A stretch of 40,257 nt of DNA from an uncultured Coriobacteriaceae bacterium (GTDB lineage Bacteria; Actinomycetota; Coriobacteriia; Coriobacteriales; Eggerthellaceae): the NCBI GenBank assembly GCA_902764575.1, contig CACWWI010000005.1, positions 1 to 40,257 of the forward strand, read 5' to 3'. Positions 16,031 to 35,580 of the stretch are shown one piece after another. A program made the translations under genes and the position numbers. How positions within the stretch are numbered: the stretch's first letter is position 1; the number at the start of each line of letters is the position of its first letter. The notes under the pieces are model-generated. The model searched no databases, was not told the DNA's origin, and saw nothing but the letters and a program-made list of their open reading frames with translations.

Positions 16031-16429
16031 CTATGAGTCGAGAATGCCCTGGTCCTTGACGGCCTGAATGACCTCTATGTCTGCCGGCAGCCAGTCGACG
16101 GAATCGACGTTGCCCGCGTCGAGCCAACGGGCTGCCCTGTGCTCGTGGAGCTCCAGCTGGCCGTCCACAACGTGGCAGAGGAAGCAGTGCATGTGCAGGT
16201 GGAACGCCTCGTAGTCGTAATCAACCACGGTCACGAGCGAGTCGACCGCGATGCGCACCTCCAGCTCCTCGTGCACCTCGCGCACGACGGCCTCTTCGGG
16301 CGTCTCGCCCGGCTCGATCTTGCCGCCCGGGAACTCCCACCCGCCGGCGAAGTCCCCGTACCCGCGCTGGGTCCCGAGTATCGTGCGCCCCTGCTTGATG
16401 ATGGCCGCGACCACATTGACGGTTTTCAT
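16031..16429 (-). CDS. MutT-like Nudix hydrolase
   Basis: 132 residues starting MKTVNVVAAIIKQGRTILGT, typical of 8-oxo-dGTP/CTP pyrophosphohydrolases of the MutT/NudG type. The Nudix box runs through GGKIEPGETPEEAVV and REVHEELEV, with the catalytic Glu residues kept; the last Gly of the box is replaced by Glu. Upstream GGWEFPGG is also typical. It would remove damaged nucleoside triphosphates from the pool. A strong AGGAGG lies just before the ATG, and the gene follows the fructosamine kinase-like gene by 21 bases on the same strand, so they probably form an operon. Confidence 0.9.
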   Translation of the reverse strand: MKTVNVVAAIIKQGRTILGTQRGYGDFAGGWEFPGGKIEPGETPEEAVVREVHEELEVRIAVDSLVTVVDYDYEAFHLHMHCFLCHVVDGQLELHEHRAARWLDAGNVDSVDWLPADIEVIQAVKDQGILDS

Positions 16430-16450: not shown

Positions 16451-17266
16451 TTACGCGTAGGGGCGGGCGGCGGCGAGGGCGCGTTGCGTGTAGCCGCGGC
16501 CGAACAGGGCGCAGTGATGCAGCAACGGCGCCAGCTGGTGCAGCAGCACGCGGTCGCGCCAGCCGTCTGCGAGCGGCGAGGCCTCGTTGTATGCGGCGAT
16601 GATCCGATCGAGGTACTGGCACCCGAACAACGCGAGCATCGCCAGGTCGGTCTCGGCGTGGCCTCCGTGCGCCATCGGGTCTATGAGCACGGCGCCCACG
16701 CGGTTGCCGGGATCCGCATCCCAGAGCAGGTTGCCCGACCACAGGTCGCCGTGGATGCGCGCCACGGGCATGCCCGCGCGCACGAGAAGCCCGGGCTGCG
16801 GGGCATCGAAGTCGCCGTCTGCCAAACGGCCGGCCACGCGCTCGAACAGCGCCGCTTCCTCGCGTCCGAACGCGCCGGCATCGAGCGCCTGGCGCACGTA
16901 GCTCATCACGCGCCACTCGGCGAAGAACGCACCCCACGAGCGCGGGGCGTCCGCCTCCGCAACCGTTGGCGTGATGGAGGCGGCGATGCGGTAGCCGCCC
17001 TCCCAGCCGTCGGGCGGCGCGCCCCACCACGCGGCACCCGCCGCATGCGTCACGGCCAGAGCAGCGCCCACGCGCTCGGCAGCCTGCGCGCTGGCCGGCC
17101 CAGCGAAAACGCGTTGCTCGACCAAGGTGAAGTCGTCCGCCGAAACGACGTGCGCCACCGGCATCCCGCCTGCCGCCTCGGCCTGCCCCAGCCAGCGCAG
17201 CGCCGCAGCCTCCCCCACGAGGGAGGACGTCCCCGGCGTGCCCCGTTTCATGAACGTATCCATCAT
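16451..17266 (-). CDS. Fructosamine kinase-family phosphotransferase
   Basis: About 271 residues of the protein-kinase-like (APH) fold. The catalytic loop reads RIHGDLWSGNLLWD, and the metal-binding segment LIDPMAHGGHAETDLAML matches the IDPA..G..E.DLAM signature of fructosamine-3-kinases. An N-terminal part with VEQRVFAG and the WWGAPPDGW region fits the family. These enzymes phosphorylate ketoamines formed by glycation so that they decompose. GTG at 17272, ATG at 17266 and ATG at 17263 are all possible starts; AGGTGG lies just before the two ATGs, and 17266 is used here. Paired with a nucleotide-sanitising Nudix gene, it suggests a damage-repair operon. Confidence 0.86.
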   Translation of the reverse strand: MMDTFMKRGTPGTSSLVGEAAALRWLGQAEAAGGMPVAHVVSADDFTLVEQRVFAGPASAQAAERVGAALAVTHAAGAAWWGAPPDGWEGGYRIAASITPTVAEADAPRSWGAFFAEWRVMSYVRQALDAGAFGREEAALFERVAGRLADGDFDAPQPGLLVRAGMPVARIHGDLWSGNLLWDADPGNRVGAVLIDPMAHGGHAETDLAMLALFGCQYLDRIIAAYNEASPLADGWRDRVLLHQLAPLLHHCALFGRGYTQRALAAARPYA

Positions 17267-17318
17267 GCCCACCTATCTGCGCGGTACCGACCGCAGCCGC
17301 GAGCGGCCCTCTCCCCGC

Positions 17319-17588
17319 TCATCTGCCGTTGAAGTGCCCGATGGCTATTGTAGCCAAGAGCGCACGGGGCAGGCACGGCGCGGGCCTCATGAATGGCCCA
17401 CGTCGCGCACGCCAAGTATGGCCGGTCCCGTTAGCGTGCCCTTCGTGCCAACCCGGGGGCACCACGTGCATTACTTTATCGGGCATCTTGCCCACGCCCC
17501 TCCTCTCGTTGAATTCTCGCCCATCGAGATTTATGGCATGCCTCACCTCGATGGAATTGCCGCAGAACTCGCATTGAACGCGAGCGAA
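17319..17588 (-). pseudogene. Possible remnant of a small zinc-ribbon protein; rest of 17267-17600 shows nothing else
   Basis: A minus-strand frame without a usable N-terminal start reads VQCEFCGNSIEVRHAINLDG, followed by FNERRGVGKMPDKVMHVVPP. The CxxC pair and low-complexity-free text look protein-like, while the last ~30 residues do not. The frame is closed upstream by a TGA at 17589-17591, exactly at the outer edge of the inverted-repeat element at 17587-17800, so the 5' end may have been displaced by that element. The evidence is weak; no second CxxC is seen. Confidence 0.25.
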
Positions 17589-17800
17589 TCACCGATTGAT
17601 AGCATTTTCGCCAAAAATCGCTATTAAATGGTTAATTGAATACGAATCGAAGCGGCGCCCGAATCAACGGACAGACGAATGCCCCCGTCATCGCCTCGTC
17701 GAAAACGACCATAAGCGAGACCAAGCAGAAACAGCCACCCCCAACTAACCATTTAATGCGATTTTTTGGCAGTCTTTGACGAAATCGATGATCCAAAGAG
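17587..17800. repeat. ~205-bp inverted-repeat element, copy A
   Basis: The left arm (17587-17636) and right arm (17745-17792) are imperfect inverted repeats of ~50 bases. The arms share a core of ATTAACCATTTAAT followed by GCGATTTTTTGGCAG and, further out, AATCGATGAT or a variant. The same arms bound copy B at 22620-22835, with the same total length. A central block (CCCCC..ATCG..CT..CGAAAA) is also weakly shared. No ORF lies inside. It may be a MITE-like element, or a structured RNA or regulatory cassette. Confidence 0.75.
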
Positions 17801-17849
17801 CATCAGACAGCATTTTGAGGCGCCCAGGGCCGCGCTTATCGCCCGTGTT

Positions 17850-17915
17850 GGCCGGAATCGGCGATGAAGCCTGTCCGACAGGCGATGTCGGGGCCTGGCC
17901 GGATCGGCATGAAGC
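17850..17915. repeat. Imperfect direct repeat around a small palindrome
   Basis: GGCCGGAATCGGCGATGAAG at 17850-17869 recurs with two deletions as GGCCGGATCGGCATGAAGC at 17897-17915. The interval contains the palindrome CCTGTCCGACAGG. It lies between copy A of the inverted-repeat element and the stop of the glycosidase gene. It could be a recombination or protein-binding site, or decayed sequence. Confidence 0.4.
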
Positions 17916-17971
17916 GGGAAACCCGGCACTCGCCCGAAGGGAGGGTGCGCGCTGCCTCCTCTGCCCGAGGT

Positions 17972-20900
17972 CTAAGACGATGGAAGCCGTCCCCGCCCAT
18001 CGGGCAAGCCGCCGCGCGTCGCCAGGCGCAGCACGCGGGTGGCGTTCGCCTCGAGCTGATGCCGGCCCAGTTCGCCGGACGAAAGCGCTGCCAGGATGTC
18101 CTTGAAATCGTCCTTGCTGCCGGGCATGAACAGGTCGCCTCCCGCAGCGGCCACGCGGCTGGCCCGCGCGATGGGCCAGCGCTCGCCGCGGTTCTTGAGC
18201 GGCAGCACCCAGTCGGTCATCACGACGCCGTCGAACCCACATTCCGCGCGCAGGTAGCCCTCGATCAAGCCGCGGCTCTCGGACGTGTGCGTGCCGTTCA
18301 GCAAGTTGTACGAGGTCATGACGGCTGCCGGCCGGCTCTCGCGCAGGCAGGTCCCGAAGCCCCTCAGGTAAACCTCGCGCAGGGCGCGCTCGCCCACCTG
18401 GCTGTTGTTGAAGTAGCGGTTCGTCTCCTGGTTGTTGGCCGCGAAGTGCTTGATCGTTGCGCCGCGCCCCGGGTGCGCCTGCACCCCGTTCACGAGCGCG
18501 GCGGCCATCTTGCCGCTGACGAGCGGGTCCTCGCTGAAGTACTCGAAGTTGCGCCCGCAGAGCACCGAGCGGTGGATGTTGAGCGCCGGCGCCAGCCATA
18601 GGTCCACGCCGAAGCGCTCCATCTCGGCGCCGACAACGTCGCCGCACGTGCGAGCGTATTCGAGGTTCCACGACTGCGCGATGGCCGTGCCGATGGGGAG
18701 CGCCGTGCAGTACTGCGCCAGCGCCTCGGCACCGCGCGGCGGCTTCTTGCCGCTCAGGAGCTTCAGGGCCACCGCCCGCGCGGGGGCGCTCAGCACGTCG
18801 AGGATGCCTTCGGGGATGGAGCCCGCGCCCAGCGCATGGGCGCCCTTGTCGTCGCGGTAGAACTCCCGCGCAAGCCGCAAGCCCGCAGGCCCATCGGCCA
18901 TGACGACGGGCTCGAAGCCCACGCTCCGCAGCTGGGAGGCGGTCTCGCCGGCCGCCCCCGCCACGAGGGTCGACGCGTTGCCGATCACGGCGAACAGGCC
19001 GCCTATCCCGGAGAAGCGCCCGACGCCCGCGTAGGCGAGCTCCCGGTCGGTCAGGGACGCCACCACGGGATCGACCTCGGGGTCGGCGTCGTACGCGACG
19101 TCGACCACCTGGAAGCATCCAGGGTCGAGCATCAACCGGGGAAGCCCGCCGAGCTGCTCGTCGCGCGCAACGCGGTCGTAGGCCACCTCGTCGATGCCCG
19201 CGGAAGCGACGATGGAGCGCACCGTGCGCAGCACCACGCCCCGGCCGAGCCCGACGACGGCAACCGCCCGCGCGTCCGCGCTGCACGTCCCCGCCCGCAC
19301 AACGTACTCGCCCGCCTCCAGCACATAGGCGCAAGCCTCCTCGCTGTAAGACGCAAGGTCGGCGAAGTCGAACGCCACCTCCACGCGCTCGGTTGCGCCC
19401 GGCTGCAGCAAGCCCGTCTTCGCGAAGCCGGCGAGCTCCTGCCACGGCTTCCTGAGCTCCCGCTCGGGAGCGGTCACGTAAACCTGCACGACCTCCTTGC
19501 CAGGGAAATCGCCGGCGTTTCTCACCTCGACCGAAACGGTGGCGCGGCTGCCTGCCAGCTCCACCGACGCTTCGCCCAGCTCGAACTCGGTGTAGGACAG
19601 CCCGAACCCGAACGGGAACAGCGCGCGTTTGCCCACCGTGTCGAAGTAGCGGTACCCGACGTAGACGCCCTCGCGGTACGGCGTGTCGTCGAGGCCACCC
19701 ATCTCGATATCGGGGCAGTAGTCATCCCAAGCAGACCACGTGGTGGCAAGCTTGCCCGACGGCACCGCAGCTCCTAGCAGCACGTCCGCCAGGGCATTGC
19801 CCATCTCCGAACCGAGCTGCGAGAGCACCAGGATGTTCCCCACGTCCTTCACGGGGCTCAAGTCCACCGGGCCGCCCGTGTTAAGCACGAGCATGAAGCG
19901 CTCGTAGCGCCCGTTCAGCGCCAGGATGTCGCGGACTTCGGTCGCGGTGAGCAGCACGTCGCCGGCAACCGGCTTGCGATCGCTCCCCTCGCCCGATATG
20001 CGCGAGAGCACGTAGATGGCGGCATCGGCGGAATAGTCGAGCGGGATGTCGTACTCGGGCTCGGGCATGACCGCCCCCATGGCGTAGGAGATGACGAAAT
20101 CGCCGGCCGCCTTCGCCTCGCGCTTCAGCTGCTTGCGGAAGGCGGCCTTCGCCGCCAGGCGGCGCTCGTCGTAGGCGTCGAGCCACGCCCCGCTCGTCAG
20201 CTCGAAGCCGGCGTCCAAGAGCCCGCGCTCGATGCCGACCACCACATGGGCGTTCACGTCGCCCGACCCCGTGCCGCCCTTCACGCCATGGCGCACCCCG
20301 TTGCCGAACGCCGCGAGCCTGCAGGGCGCCCCGAGCGGGAACGAGCCGTCCTTGCGCAGCAGCACCATGCACTCCGCCAGCCCCTCGCGAATGCGCGCCA
20401 AGTGGTCGCGCTCGTAGTCGAGCAGTTCCCCGCTTTTAGCAGGCGCAGCGGCCGGCCGACGTTCCCCGCCATCGCGGTTCGCGCCCAGGCCGTCCGGGCA
20501 TTCGCGCTGCCCGACCTGCTTCTTGAAGAAGCCGCTCATCGCATCGATGGCGATGCGGCTTTCCGGGTAGTGGGGGAACGCCACCGAGAAGACGTGCACG
20601 AGCTTGCGCTCGCCGCCGCGCGGGAAGTCCAAGAGCTCGTTCGCAACGCGCGACGAAGCAAGCAGGCCCTGCAGCTTCATCGTGTCGTTGCGGATGAGGT
20701 CCTCTTCGCTCGTTACGAGGTAGATTGGCGGAAGCTGCGTGCGGCCCACCATGGCGCCGGGGTCGAGCAGGTAGCGCTCGTACGGGCGGCCGAGGTCTTC
20801 GTCGCCGGTCACGACGTCGCTGATGGTGCGCATGAGGTCCGTCCGCTGGGTGTCGAGCATGATGGAGATGAAGCCGGCCGCGCGGAACTCAATCCCGCAG

Positions 20901-21400
20901 GGAGCGATGCCGAAAGCGTCGCGCAACGCGGCGGAACCCTCGAGCGCAAGTGCGAAGTAGGCGAGCAGCGCGCCCGCCGAGTCGCCCGTGATGAAGCAAC
21001 GGCCCAGGTCAAGCCCAAGCTCGCCCGCATGCTCGGCGACGTACCGCAGCGCAGCCATGACGTCGTCGACTTGATGCCAGAGCGTCACGTCGGGAATGCG
21101 CCGGTAGCTGATGCTGACGACCGTATAGCCCCTGCGCGCCCATTCGTAGTTGAAGTTGGCGTTCAGGTCCTTGTACGAGGCGAAAAGCCCGCCGCCGTGA
21201 ATGTTCACGACCACCGGGGCGTCGGCAGGCGCGTCGGGCAGCCGGTAAACGTCGAAGAGGTGGCCCCGATCCCCGTCGTCGATGTAGGCGATATCCCGTT
21301 CGATCGAGAGGTCAGACGTGTCTTGCGCCTGCTTGGCCAAACGGCGCGCGTCGTTCGTCTCGAAGATCGTGCGCCACAAGAGCGCCCCGGCTTTCGACAT
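17972..21400 (-). CDS. Alpha/beta-hydrolase (esterase) fused to a circularly permuted GH3 glycosidase
   Basis: A 1142-residue fusion. Residues 1-~310 are an HSL-type carboxylesterase with the oxyanion HGGG (68-71) and nucleophile GDSAG (Ser141). A charged linker (~310-345) follows. The GH3 part is in permuted order: the C-domain-like segment comes first (~345-590: PLGAPCRLAAFGNGVRHGVK, NTGGPVDLSPV, SGKLATTWSAW), then a fibronectin III-like domain (~620-720), then the catalytic barrel (~790-1120) with VMADGPAGLR, RNFEYFSEDP, KHFAANNQET (from 984) and the nucleophile region VMTDW (Asp1063). C-domain-first GH3 beta-glucosidases are known from rumen bacteria. No signal peptide is seen, so it acts in the cytoplasm. 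The fusion suggests removal of both acyl and sugar groups from acylated glycosides. Confidence 0.85.
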   Translation of the reverse strand: MSKAGALLWRTIFETNDARRLAKQAQDTSDLSIERDIAYIDDGDRGHLFDVYRLPDAPADAPVVVNIHGGGLFASYKDLNANFNYEWARRGYTVVSISYRRIPDVTLWHQVDDVMAALRYVAEHAGELGLDLGRCFITGDSAGALLAYFALALEGSAALRDAFGIAPCGIEFRAAGFISIMLDTQRTDLMRTISDVVTGDEDLGRPYERYLLDPGAMVGRTQLPPIYLVTSEEDLIRNDTMKLQGLLASSRVANELLDFPRGGERKLVHVFSVAFPHYPESRIAIDAMSGFFKKQVGQRECPDGLGANRDGGERRPAAAPAKSGELLDYERDHLARIREGLAECMVLLRKDGSFPLGAPCRLAAFGNGVRHGVKGGTGSGDVNAHVVVGIERGLLDAGFELTSGAWLDAYDERRLAAKAAFRKQLKREAKAAGDFVISYAMGAVMPEPEYDIPLDYSADAAIYVLSRISGEGSDRKPVAGDVLLTATEVRDILALNGRYERFMLVLNTGGPVDLSPVKDVGNILVLSQLGSEMGNALADVLLGAAVPSGKLATTWSAWDDYCPDIEMGGLDDTPYREGVYVGYRYFDTVGKRALFPFGFGLSYTEFELGEASVELAGSRATVSVEVRNAGDFPGKEVVQVYVTAPERELRKPWQELAGFAKTGLLQPGATERVEVAFDFADLASYSEEACAYVLEAGEYVVRAGTCSADARAVAVVGLGRGVVLRTVRSIVASAGIDEVAYDRVARDEQLGGLPRLMLDPGCFQVVDVAYDADPEVDPVVASLTDRELAYAGVGRFSGIGGLFAVIGNASTLVAGAAGETASQLRSVGFEPVVMADGPAGLRLAREFYRDDKGAHALGAGSIPEGILDVLSAPARAVALKLLSGKKPPRGAEALAQYCTALPIGTAIAQSWNLEYARTCGDVVGAEMERFGVDLWLAPALNIHRSVLCGRNFEYFSEDPLVSGKMAAALVNGVQAHPGRGATIKHFAANNQETNRYFNNSQVGERALREVYLRGFGTCLRESRPAAVMTSYNLLNGTHTSESRGLIEGYLRAECGFDGVVMTDWVLPLKNRGERWPIARASRVAAAGGDLFMPGSKDDFKDILAALSSGELGRHQLEANATRVLRLATRGGLPDGRGRLPSS

Positions 21401-21546
21401 GCTCCCAACCCCCTATACCCGAAGCTGCGCAGTTTCAGTTATACCGAGTATAGAGTGAGCAACTCGGCTGATTCACGGGTTTGCGCCAGTTTCATCGAAA
21501 GCCGTTCAACAGCAGACCTTTTGCGGCATTGCCTCGGTAGCGGCCC

Positions 21547-22515
21547 CTATCCCCGCAACCCGGTCTTGAGCCAGGGGAACAACGCAACTCGCAAATCCGC
21601 GCGCGCTTGCGTGAATTCAAGGTCGCGGGGGCGTAAGCGGCGCTTCAGCTGATGCGCCAGCTGAATCGCGACGTTGTCGAACGCGCCCGGCGAGGCAATC
21701 ATGGGCTTGCGCACGGTTATGACCGTTATGTCCTTGTATCCCAGCACGTTACGGCGGCCTGCATCCCGCGACGCGCTCTGCGACGTCAGGTGCTCCTGGT
21801 CGCTGTCGTATTCGATGACGGTAGCCGCCTCGACCCAATGGAGATCGCAGCGCATCGAGCTGTACCCGTGCATTCTCGAAGCGCGCACGCCGAGCGGCGT
21901 CTTCGGGTTCATATCGGGAAACGCGAACCCGTAACCGCCCATGCGCACAGGCAGGCAAAGGAGCAGCACAAGCGCCGTCTCGGCAGGCGAGTTCGACCCG
22001 TCGACCACCCAGCGCAGCGCCTTTCGCGCAGTCGCAGCCCCGCGCACGCCCGCCGCCCGGCTGCAAAACGATAGCAGCTTGCTCTTGCTGGTCACAGGCG
22101 GGCGCTCGTCGAATCGATCGCTGTAGGGGCAGGGGGCGTACGTCCCGCACAGCTCCATGCCGAGCTTGACGAGGTCAAGGAAGTCCAGCCGATTCGCCAT
22201 TTGCACGAACGTCATCTCGGGGGATGTTATATAGGCGTTGTCCGCAATCCTGCAGAACATGCCTGGGATCGGGGGCGTCAACAGAACGCGGCACACATGG
22301 TCCTTGGACCGAAATGCCTTGCTCGACGAGGGCACAATCACCTCGAGCTTGTCCTGGCTTTGGTCAAACGCGGGAATCGGGATTCTCTCGACATCGGTCA
22401 ACGAGCTCGCGCAGTCCGCTAGCGTCGTAATTCGCGCAGGACGCAGCTCGCTGCGGCGCCAGCGCTCGGCGCGGATGAAATCGAGCGCGGATGTGTGGCC
22501 TAGAACGAGTTTCAT
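21547..22515 (-). CDS. Orphan AbiEi/DUF559-like protein with putative nuclease fold
   Basis: 322 residues; I recognise the general type but no named family with certainty. The middle part (LTPPIPGMFCRIADNAYITS; SPAETALVLLLCL) resembles AbiEi-type or very-short-patch-like proteins. The C-terminal part contains RCDLHWVEAATVIEYDSDQEH, close to the D...W...(I/V)EYD..H pattern of DUF559/Vsr-type PD-(D/E)XK nucleases. ATG 22515 has GGAGG nine bases upstream; the longer frame to 22605 is not supported. No antitoxin or modification gene adjoins it. It sits between the permuted glycosidase gene and the second inverted-repeat element. Confidence 0.55.
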   Translation of the reverse strand: MKLVLGHTSALDFIRAERWRRSELRPARITTLADCASSLTDVERIPIPAFDQSQDKLEVIVPSSSKAFRSKDHVCRVLLTPPIPGMFCRIADNAYITSPEMTFVQMANRLDFLDLVKLGMELCGTYAPCPYSDRFDERPPVTSKSKLLSFCSRAAGVRGAATARKALRWVVDGSNSPAETALVLLLCLPVRMGGYGFAFPDMNPKTPLGVRASRMHGYSSMRCDLHWVEAATVIEYDSDQEHLTSQSASRDAGRRNVLGYKDITVITVRKPMIASPGAFDNVAIQLAHQLKRRLRPRDLEFTQARADLRVALFPWLKTGLRG

Positions 22516-22619
22516 ACGCGTCAGCCTCCATGAACGAGCCCCCATGCGCCCAACGCCCCAAACGAGCTTCGTGCGAGGAAGCGCCCAAGGGCGAACCTTG
22601 CGCATTAGCGTAGCATGAG

Positions 22620-22835
22620 CGGCCTTCGATCATCGATTTTGAGCAAAACTGCCAAAAATCGCTATTAAATGGTTAATCGATCCCAGCCTTGAACGACATC
22701 TGGATTTGCAGCGAGGCAAACCCCCACGTTATCGTCTTGGCCGAAAATCTGGGAAGCGACCTGTAACCCAATCTGGCACGATGATTAACCATTTAATGCA
22801 ATTTTTTGGCAGTTTTCGGCGAACACAGTGATTTA
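22620..22835. repeat. ~205-bp inverted-repeat element, copy B
   Basis: The left arm (22628-22678) and right arm (22783-22832) carry the same inverted core as copy A: GCCAAAAATCGCTATTAAAT on the left and ATTAACCATTTAATGCAATT on the right. The outer part of the left arm in reverse complement (AAAATCGATGATCGAAG) matches the outer right arm of copy A. The interior differs except for a central CCCCC..TATCG..CT..CGAAAA block at 22721-22746, at the same offset as in copy A. The rest of 22516-22961 holds no gene I can support. Confidence 0.75.
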
Positions 22836-22961: not shown

Positions 22962-23636
22962 TCAGCGTGCAGCGAACGAGGGCGCAAGCAGCTCGGAGGG
23001 GTCGTGGATGTAGGCGTCCAGGTCGGCGACGGGCAGCGGGTTGGCGGCGTCGTAGCCCCACGACACGCCGATGGCGCGCACGCCCGCGTTGCGGGCGACG
23101 TGCACGTCGACGATCGCGTCGCCCAGGTAGGCGGCTTCGCCCGGCTGCACTCCCAGTTCGTCGAGCATGCGCAGCAACGTGGTGGGGTTGGGCTTGCGCG
23201 GCGCGGGCGGCGCATCGCCACGCACCGCGTCGAACAGGCCGGGGAAGAACCGCTCGGCCAGCTGGCGTGCGCCCTCGTCGAACTTGTTGGACAGCACGGC
23301 GGTCTTCGCCCCGCGCCGGCGCAGCTCCTCGAGCGATTCGACGATGCCCGGGAAGGGCTCGGTCAGGGGATAGCCGCTGCCGATGTAGATCGAGCGCCAC
23401 AGCTCGAACGTCTCCTCGCGCAGCTCCCGTGGCGTGCCCGGCGGCACCGCGCGCTCGATGAGTCGCGCTCCCCCGTCGCCCATGAACCCCAGGACCTCCT
23501 CGTAGGTGCGCGCCGGAAACCCCATCTGCACGAGCGCCTCGTTGGTCGCAACCACCAGGTCCGGCAACGTATGCAGGATGGTGCCGTCCATGTCGAACAC
23601 GAACGCCTTGATCTCCCTATCCGCCGAAGCCCCCAC
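22962..23636 (-). CDS. HAD-family hydrolase, phosphoglycolate phosphatase-like
   Basis: 224 residues of the HAD subfamily IA fold: motif I FVFDMDGTIL with the nucleophilic and acid Asp pair, a helical cap (residues ~20-90), motif II VLSNKFDEG, motif III Lys in PRKPNPTTL and motif IV YLGDAIVDVHVA. It probably removes phosphate from a small phosphometabolite. GTG is the likely start at 23636, preceded by a G-rich ribosome-binding region. It stands alone between the second inverted-repeat element and the divergent substrate-binding lipoprotein gene. Confidence 0.87.
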   Translation of the reverse strand: MGASADREIKAFVFDMDGTILHTLPDLVVATNEALVQMGFPARTYEEVLGFMGDGGARLIERAVPPGTPRELREETFELWRSIYIGSGYPLTEPFPGIVESLEELRRRGAKTAVLSNKFDEGARQLAERFFPGLFDAVRGDAPPAPRKPNPTTLLRMLDELGVQPGEAAYLGDAIVDVHVARNAGVRAIGVSWGYDAANPLPVADLDAYIHDPSELLAPSFAAR

Positions 23637-35346: not shown

Positions 35347-35434
35347 GTGCTGCGCCATCTCCCTTTCTGGCAAATCGAGAGCGTGCGCACTATTGTACTC
35401 CATTGTGCGATAGTGCGTGGATATCGCTGCGCGC

Positions 35435-35565
35435 GGGCGCACGGAGTGCGCCCCTACCAACGGCCCGCCGCCCACATCGCACATCCGCGTGTCCGGAGCC
35501 TGCCAGCACGCGGGACTGCGTTATGTGGGCGTGTTGTCGCCGGTAGGGGCGCACTCCGTGCGCCC
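35435..35565. repeat. Inverted pair of REP-like palindromes
   Basis: Two identical hairpins with stems GGGCGCAC/GTGCGCCC occur at 35435-35457 and 35543-35565 in opposite orientation, each with a GTAG foot pointing inward (CTAC at the right of the first, GTAG at the left of the second). The 85-base interval holds no gene. The stem is closely related to the palindrome at 4086-4108. The arrangement resembles a BIME of two REPs. Confidence 0.75.
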
Positions 35566-35580
35566 GCCGCCGAAGGCGGC
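35566..35580 (-). terminator. Short UUCG hairpin after the envelope-protein gene
   Basis: On the minus strand GCCGCCTTCGGCGGC folds into a six-pair stem with a tetraloop of the stable C(UUCG)G type. It lies ~35 bases after the stop of the large gene and directly joins a REP-like hairpin. There is no T tract, so termination strength is uncertain. Confidence 0.45.

Follow-up and report, generated by a model that had tools for sequence, protein, structure and literature searches.

Background

REPIN/RAYT systems couple REP doublets to REP-associated tyrosine transposases (PMC3116915, PMC2817692) and are the principal known example of a vertically maintained enzyme accompanied by a population of tiny, scattered DNA elements of its own. 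Correia or NEMIS elements are Neisseria MITEs with 24-bp inverted repeats, TA ends and target-site duplications (PMC2229807).

The window considered here, meaning the whole stretch of DNA that was analysed, is one contig of 40,257 bp (65% G+C) from the 2.48-Mb draft genome of an uncultured Coriobacteriaceae bacterium. Its two long inverted-repeat elements are read, with a probability of about 0.6, as cognate DNA partners of the adjoining orphan nuclease in a two-part system of nuclease and hairpin elements.

Two hairpin elements of the window

16451-17272, minus strand: fructosamine-kinase-like (FK) gene
17587-17800, no strand: element 1, a long inverted-repeat element, the copy downstream of the nuclease gene
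17588-17639, plus strand: element 1 left arm, best-paired stretch 17610-17638
17677-17691, plus strand: element 1 central core, degenerate, GAATGCCCCCGTCAT, which matches the family core weakly (7.0 bits)
17742-17792, plus strand: element 1 right arm
17972-21400, minus strand: esterase-GH3 fusion gene, sited between elements 1 and 2
21547-22515, minus strand: orphan nuclease gene of the Vsr/DUF559-type PD-(D/E)XK family; conserved start at Met31 of the 352-aa ORF 21547-22605
22620-22835, no strand: element 2, a long inverted-repeat element directly upstream of the nuclease gene
22629-22680, plus strand: element 2 left arm, best-paired stretch 22645-22678
22718-22732, plus strand: element 2 central core, degenerate, AAACCCCCACGTTAT, which matches the family core weakly (7.4 bits)
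22783-22832, plus strand: element 2 right arm
22962-23636, minus strand: HAD-family gene

Element 1 is placed between the fructosamine-kinase-like and esterase-GH3 fusion genes, and element 2 between the HAD-family and orphan nuclease genes, ~105 bp upstream of the nuclease coding region as counted from Met31. The initial annotation had described two copies in the same orientation with conserved inverted arms of ~50 bp, and both are found. Each spans ~205 bp and is AT-rich (45-46% G+C, against 65% for the window). The left arms (17588-17639 and 22629-22680) are 81% identical and the right arms (17746-17792 and 22786-22832) 83% identical, while the inverted match from arm to arm is 79% over 29 nt in element 1 and 85% over 34 nt in element 2. 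The left arms contain GCCAAAAATCGCTATTAAATGGTTAA, of which the right arms carry the near-complement, shifted by one base. Arm motifs are common to the copies as described, except that the ATCGATGAT end is confined to two of the four arms, the right one of element 1 and, in inverted form, the left one of element 2. RNA-folding z-scores of the two elements are -3.2 and -4.5, a signal mostly accounted for by the arms.

The interiors have diverged, as had been noted, to 50% identity, which is the shuffled level (0.51; 195 of 300 shuffles were equally good). The central CCCCC..ATCG..CGAAAA block highlighted in the initial annotation therefore lacks significance by itself, but it sits at the position of the conserved core in relatives.

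The esterase-GH3 protein (1142 aa) joins an alpha/beta-hydrolase esterase to a GH3 glycosidase whose C-terminal domain precedes its N-terminal domain. The place of its gene between the two elements is probably incidental because the orthologous nucleases of G013 and G004 have no such neighbour. Excision of the segment by recombination between direct copies, an early suggestion, is not borne out: the orthologous loci in two congeners hold three elements of the same type, with different genes between them. Mobility of the 5-kb "accessory segment" as a unit is conjectural. FK-HAD synteny was tried as an empty site and rejected, as other genes lie between FK and HAD in G008 and the junction is not clean.

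Elsewhere in the window, positions 16031-16429 encode a MutT/NUDIX-like protein that also matches the PADLOC candidate defence model PDC-S07 (E=2.8e-48). A further inverted repeat of 60 nt, 77% complementary around a 15-nt loop, lies at 35433-35567, upstream of a gene starting at 35484.

The orphan nuclease family

Relatives of the window nuclease occur in 110 of 138 genomes of the same bacterial family, with up to 15 genes per genome and seven matches in its own genome. Pfam, NCBIfam and PADLOC leave the window protein alone unnamed. Across the nuclease family, 24-27 of 46 members match DUF559 or MTES_1575 weakly (E<0.1, best 2e-7), the window protein alone matching neither; MTES_1575 is a Vsr-type REase (PMC3710099). 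An alignment of the 46 members shows E209, D254, E265, D281 and R284 to be invariant, and all five are present in the window protein. The best match of the family profile to a solved structure is 3r3p (E=0.001), which covers the putative catalytic region and is deposited as a mobile intron protein. This entry is the homing endonuclease I-Bth0305I. The DUF559 and MTES_1575 matches, the invariant residues and the 3r3p match together suggest that the orphan family has nuclease activity. A profile search matched none of the family members to a Y1 transposase family. A single-sequence AlphaFold model of the window nuclease has a pLDDT of 32.

The nuclease is under purifying selection, with dN/dS of 0.08-0.26 in orthologue pairs. 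Nuclease loci are syntenic between genera in some cases and not in others. At some chromosomal positions shared between genera, the family nuclease differs from genus to genus or is missing (L136, L138, L159 and L167; L132, L143, L152 and L153). A phage or plasmid origin was considered and rejected: phage matches were lacking, and two Collinsella records hold relatives at 26-29% identity. The hairpins near these two relatives are single copies in that collection, and no nuclease relatives were found in the viral contigs searched.

Hairpins beside nuclease genes

The association was surveyed at 69 loci with 70 family genes, picked by similarity to the window protein from genomes representing one species each. 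Inverted repeats are concentrated in the 500 bp next to the nuclease genes: the first 250 bp hold 20 upstream and 16 downstream (~11 and ~9 per 10 kb), against ~0.3-0.4 per 10 kb past 1.5 kb from the gene, and 283 kb of shuffled sequence contain none. At the strict search threshold, 47 of the 68 non-window loci have at least one long inverted repeat near the gene and 21 have no hairpin.

The elements follow one design, ~130-190 bp in total, in which gene-specific arms of 25-50 bp enclose a loop of 60-120 bp with a core close to its centre. Arms are common to the elements of one locus and differ from locus to locus. The core, AAAAC(C/A)CCAGGTCGC, was captured in a PWM built from the loops, and 55 of 64 elements score above the 95th percentile of shuffled loops. 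It often stands at the exact loop centre (40/41, 41/41, 42/42, 27/28), and its direction relative to the gene varies, even between two elements at one locus. Because the same loops served both to train and to score the PWM, a held-out test on loci without a detected hairpin carries more weight: core matches number 2.96 per 10 kb near the gene and 0.16 far from it, an 18-fold difference, with a core near the gene in 7 of 22 loci.

Co-variation of arms and nucleases

Arm similarity tracks protein similarity (Pearson 0.35; Mantel 0/2000). A low rank correlation (0.10) places the signal in the closer pairs, and co-variation is equally good with the N-terminal and C-terminal parts of the protein. 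The nearest same-genus relatives of the window nuclease, 72% and 51% identical to it, adjoin elements whose arms are recognisably related. Across genera, the G090 nuclease is 85.5% identical to that of G017, and the arms of the flanking elements are 97-100% identical at best. The orthologous nucleases of L132 and L143 are 85% identical, in genomes ~93% identical nearby; the arms of their downstream elements are very different, each pair still palindromic, which suggests rapid paired change or element replacement.

Dispersed copies and turnover

Queries with 16 elements against seven genomes revealed several scattered element types. Several nuclease types have ~10-20 further intergenic sites in addition to the gene-side copies, and the ends of dispersed elements match those of elements adjoining the nuclease gene. 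In the complete genome G017, 17 copies of one type were aligned, namely 15 dispersed copies and the gene-flanking pair, and all 17 are intergenic. Their arms, TGGACAAAATCGGCCTTCGGGACTGATTTT, are near-invariant and the core, GACCAGGGGTTTC, is kept, often itself inverted, while the flanks are unrelated; among the 15 dispersed copies, identity is 89-94% in the arms, 60% in the interiors and 27% in the flanks. A perfect parS-like 16-mer, TGTTTCACGTGAAACA, lies ~22 bp outside one arm in 5 of the 17 (L218, L220, L221, L226 and L227). The 16-mer is 15/16 in one flank context and is joined by a conserved one-sided tail, TGATGCTnnnAGTCAT.

A second type, common to G102 and G100, has ~13 copies in G102. 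G100 still carries elements of this type, with the left arm changed in three of seven. At L284 of G100 (C1:2211500-2218500), the nuclease of the L128 type (the G102 type) is a 5'-truncated remnant without its N-terminal half. In the window's own genome, tens of matches to the type adjoining another family gene are dispersed. Locus L124 of this genome (contig C136) carries a tandem series of elements in which each arm is a hairpin (TACAACCGCAAATTTGCTGCA), with many dispersed copies.

Turnover was followed by seeking the flanks of twelve G102 copies in three congeners. Three sites are filled in G102 and G100 alike, and other sites are element-less in relatives; with elements present in one species and absent from another, the elements turn over. 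In the cleanest filled/empty pair (L194 vs L251), G100 lacks 379 bp that include a 155-bp element and have a 6-bp repeat at the borders, a difference that insertion or deletion fits equally well. The check for empty sites and target duplications proposed in the initial annotation turned up element-less sites, but these differ from the filled ones by more than the element, and no clean target-site duplication was found among the filled/empty pairs from G102 flanks in the three congeners.

The window's own type behaves differently. With a 26-nt arm and at most three mismatches, the two element sites are the only matches in its own genome (2.5-Mb draft), and control matches were zero. The arm sequence has no match in the 138 genomes of the same family, nor in viral contigs. 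Ten exact matches, each single, in unrelated bacteria were rejected as true copies and read as chance. The genome-wide arm search that had been recommended therefore returned no further copies of the exact sequence, but the structure recurs widely, with the same design at 47 of 68 relatives. This element type is probably old or inactive because only the gene-proximal pair remains and its cores are degenerate.

Weighing the explanations

Association, architecture, arm-protein co-variation, dispersal, arm conservation, purifying selection and presence or absence between species are established observations. The proposed system would consist of a single distinctive Vsr/DUF559-type PD-(D/E)XK nuclease gene and short non-coding elements, each with two inverted nuclease-specific arms around a 60-120-bp spacer and a core near the centre. 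Judged from sequence, the most likely mechanism is arm binding and core action by the nuclease: nuclease molecules would bind both arms of an element and cut or nick the central core. Cutting might lead to REPIN-like copying or moving of elements, or might preserve them through break repair, and the nuclease may mobilise its elements. Against the proposal stand the missing clean target-site duplication, the lack of dispersed copies and the weak core of the window type, the 21 of 68 loci that are hairpin-free and the differing arms at L132 and L143.

The main rival, itself unlikely, takes the protein for a DNA-binding regulator and the elements for operators at its own gene and regulon. AbiEi sets a precedent by autoregulating through inverted repeats (PMC7319586), and in favour of this reading the arms co-vary with the protein, elements often lie directly upstream of the gene and dispersed copies are intergenic; however, elements lie downstream of the gene about as frequently as upstream, the orientation of the core is independent of the gene, lengths of ~130-190 bp with 25-50-bp arms are unusually long and the invariant nuclease-type residues suggest cleavage. 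The pairing of one arm type with one nuclease type, across genera too, speaks against ordinary MITEs moved by an unrelated transposase, for which nuclease proximity would be an insertion preference or hitch-hiking. Terminal inverted repeats, lengths of 120-200 bp, intergenic placement and presence or absence between species fit such MITEs, yet arms are kept while interiors diverge, clean target-site duplications were not found and no such transposase was noticed, which makes this reading improbable. Of the three guesses in the initial annotation, a MITE was nevertheless the closest, relatives being dispersed and intergenic with a presence that differs between species; what it missed is the constant partner, the adjoining orphan nuclease gene.

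It is highly improbable that the elements are chromosome-organising or segregation sites recognised by a nuclease-like protein, in a role like that of matS or parS. The dispersed sites are intergenic, their arms and core are strictly conserved, and in G017 a perfect parS 16-mer stands at a constant spacing from 5 of 17 copies, but parS accompanies one element type in one genome only, positions differ between congeneric species and each genome has several partner types. A structured non-coding RNA closed by a long stem, another of the original guesses, is the least credible reading: the strong predicted hairpins are offset by the lack of any Rfam match, by a core oriented at random, either way relative to the gene, and by dispersed copies lying in any orientation relative to genes.

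Comparison with known systems

The partnership of nuclease and hairpins is apparently undescribed so far, no earlier description having been found in the open-access literature searched, a body that leaves most subscription journals outside it. More tentatively, and at somewhat less than even odds, it might be a new kind of system, in which Vsr/DUF559-fold nucleases, from as many as 15 related genes in one genome, each co-evolve with private hairpins through paired arm recognition and core action, making it a second, independent REPIN/RAYT-like partnership or a nuclease drive on the host chromosome. If true, a second case on an unrelated nuclease fold would mean that partnerships of this sort arise repeatedly, and their beginnings, their persistence and the upkeep of their specificity could be tested directly. 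A large gene family without a name, present in most of the genomes sampled from this bacterial family, would gain a likely role, and a series of nucleases whose matching DNA sites can be read would become available.

Like MITEs in general, the elements are short, non-coding and dispersed, with terminal inverted repeats. They share with Correia/NEMIS elements a length of ~105-155 bp, terminal inverted repeats, an intergenic, non-coding nature and an internal motif resembling a protein-binding site; no recurrent adjoining partner gene is described for Correia, whereas here the arms track a particular nuclease and target-site duplication was not found. I-Bth0305I (3r3p), one of the Vsr/EDxHD homing endonucleases, is the best solved-structure match over the putative catalytic region, but the family nuclease is not intron-borne, has an extra N-terminal region of ~200 residues and is tied to palindromic elements. 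The AbiEi antitoxin and its operators likewise link a DNA-binding protein to inverted repeats (PMC7319586), and the nuclease N-terminus resembles AbiEi as judged by eye only; no AbiEii toxin partner is seen, and elements here also lie downstream and genome-wide.

REPIN/RAYT comes closest. In both systems the enzyme genes are distinctive, and each is adjoined, often on both sides, by palindromic elements cognate to it; both have inverted doublets, dispersed between genes, whose arms are conserved and whose spacers vary (the window's own type is not dispersed), and in both the enzyme-element pairing is maintained through sequence change. The enzyme here is of the Vsr/DUF559-type PD-(D/E)XK kind, whereas RAYT is a Y1/HUH tyrosine transposase. 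Further differences are arms of 25-50 bp that mostly form no hairpin on their own, the absence of the constant GTAG/GT(A/G)G head from the listed arm sequences, a common core near the spacer centre and ~2-20 copies per type, against often more than 100 in REPIN. By this analogy, the nuclease-hairpin system would work like REPIN/RAYT but stand outside that family.
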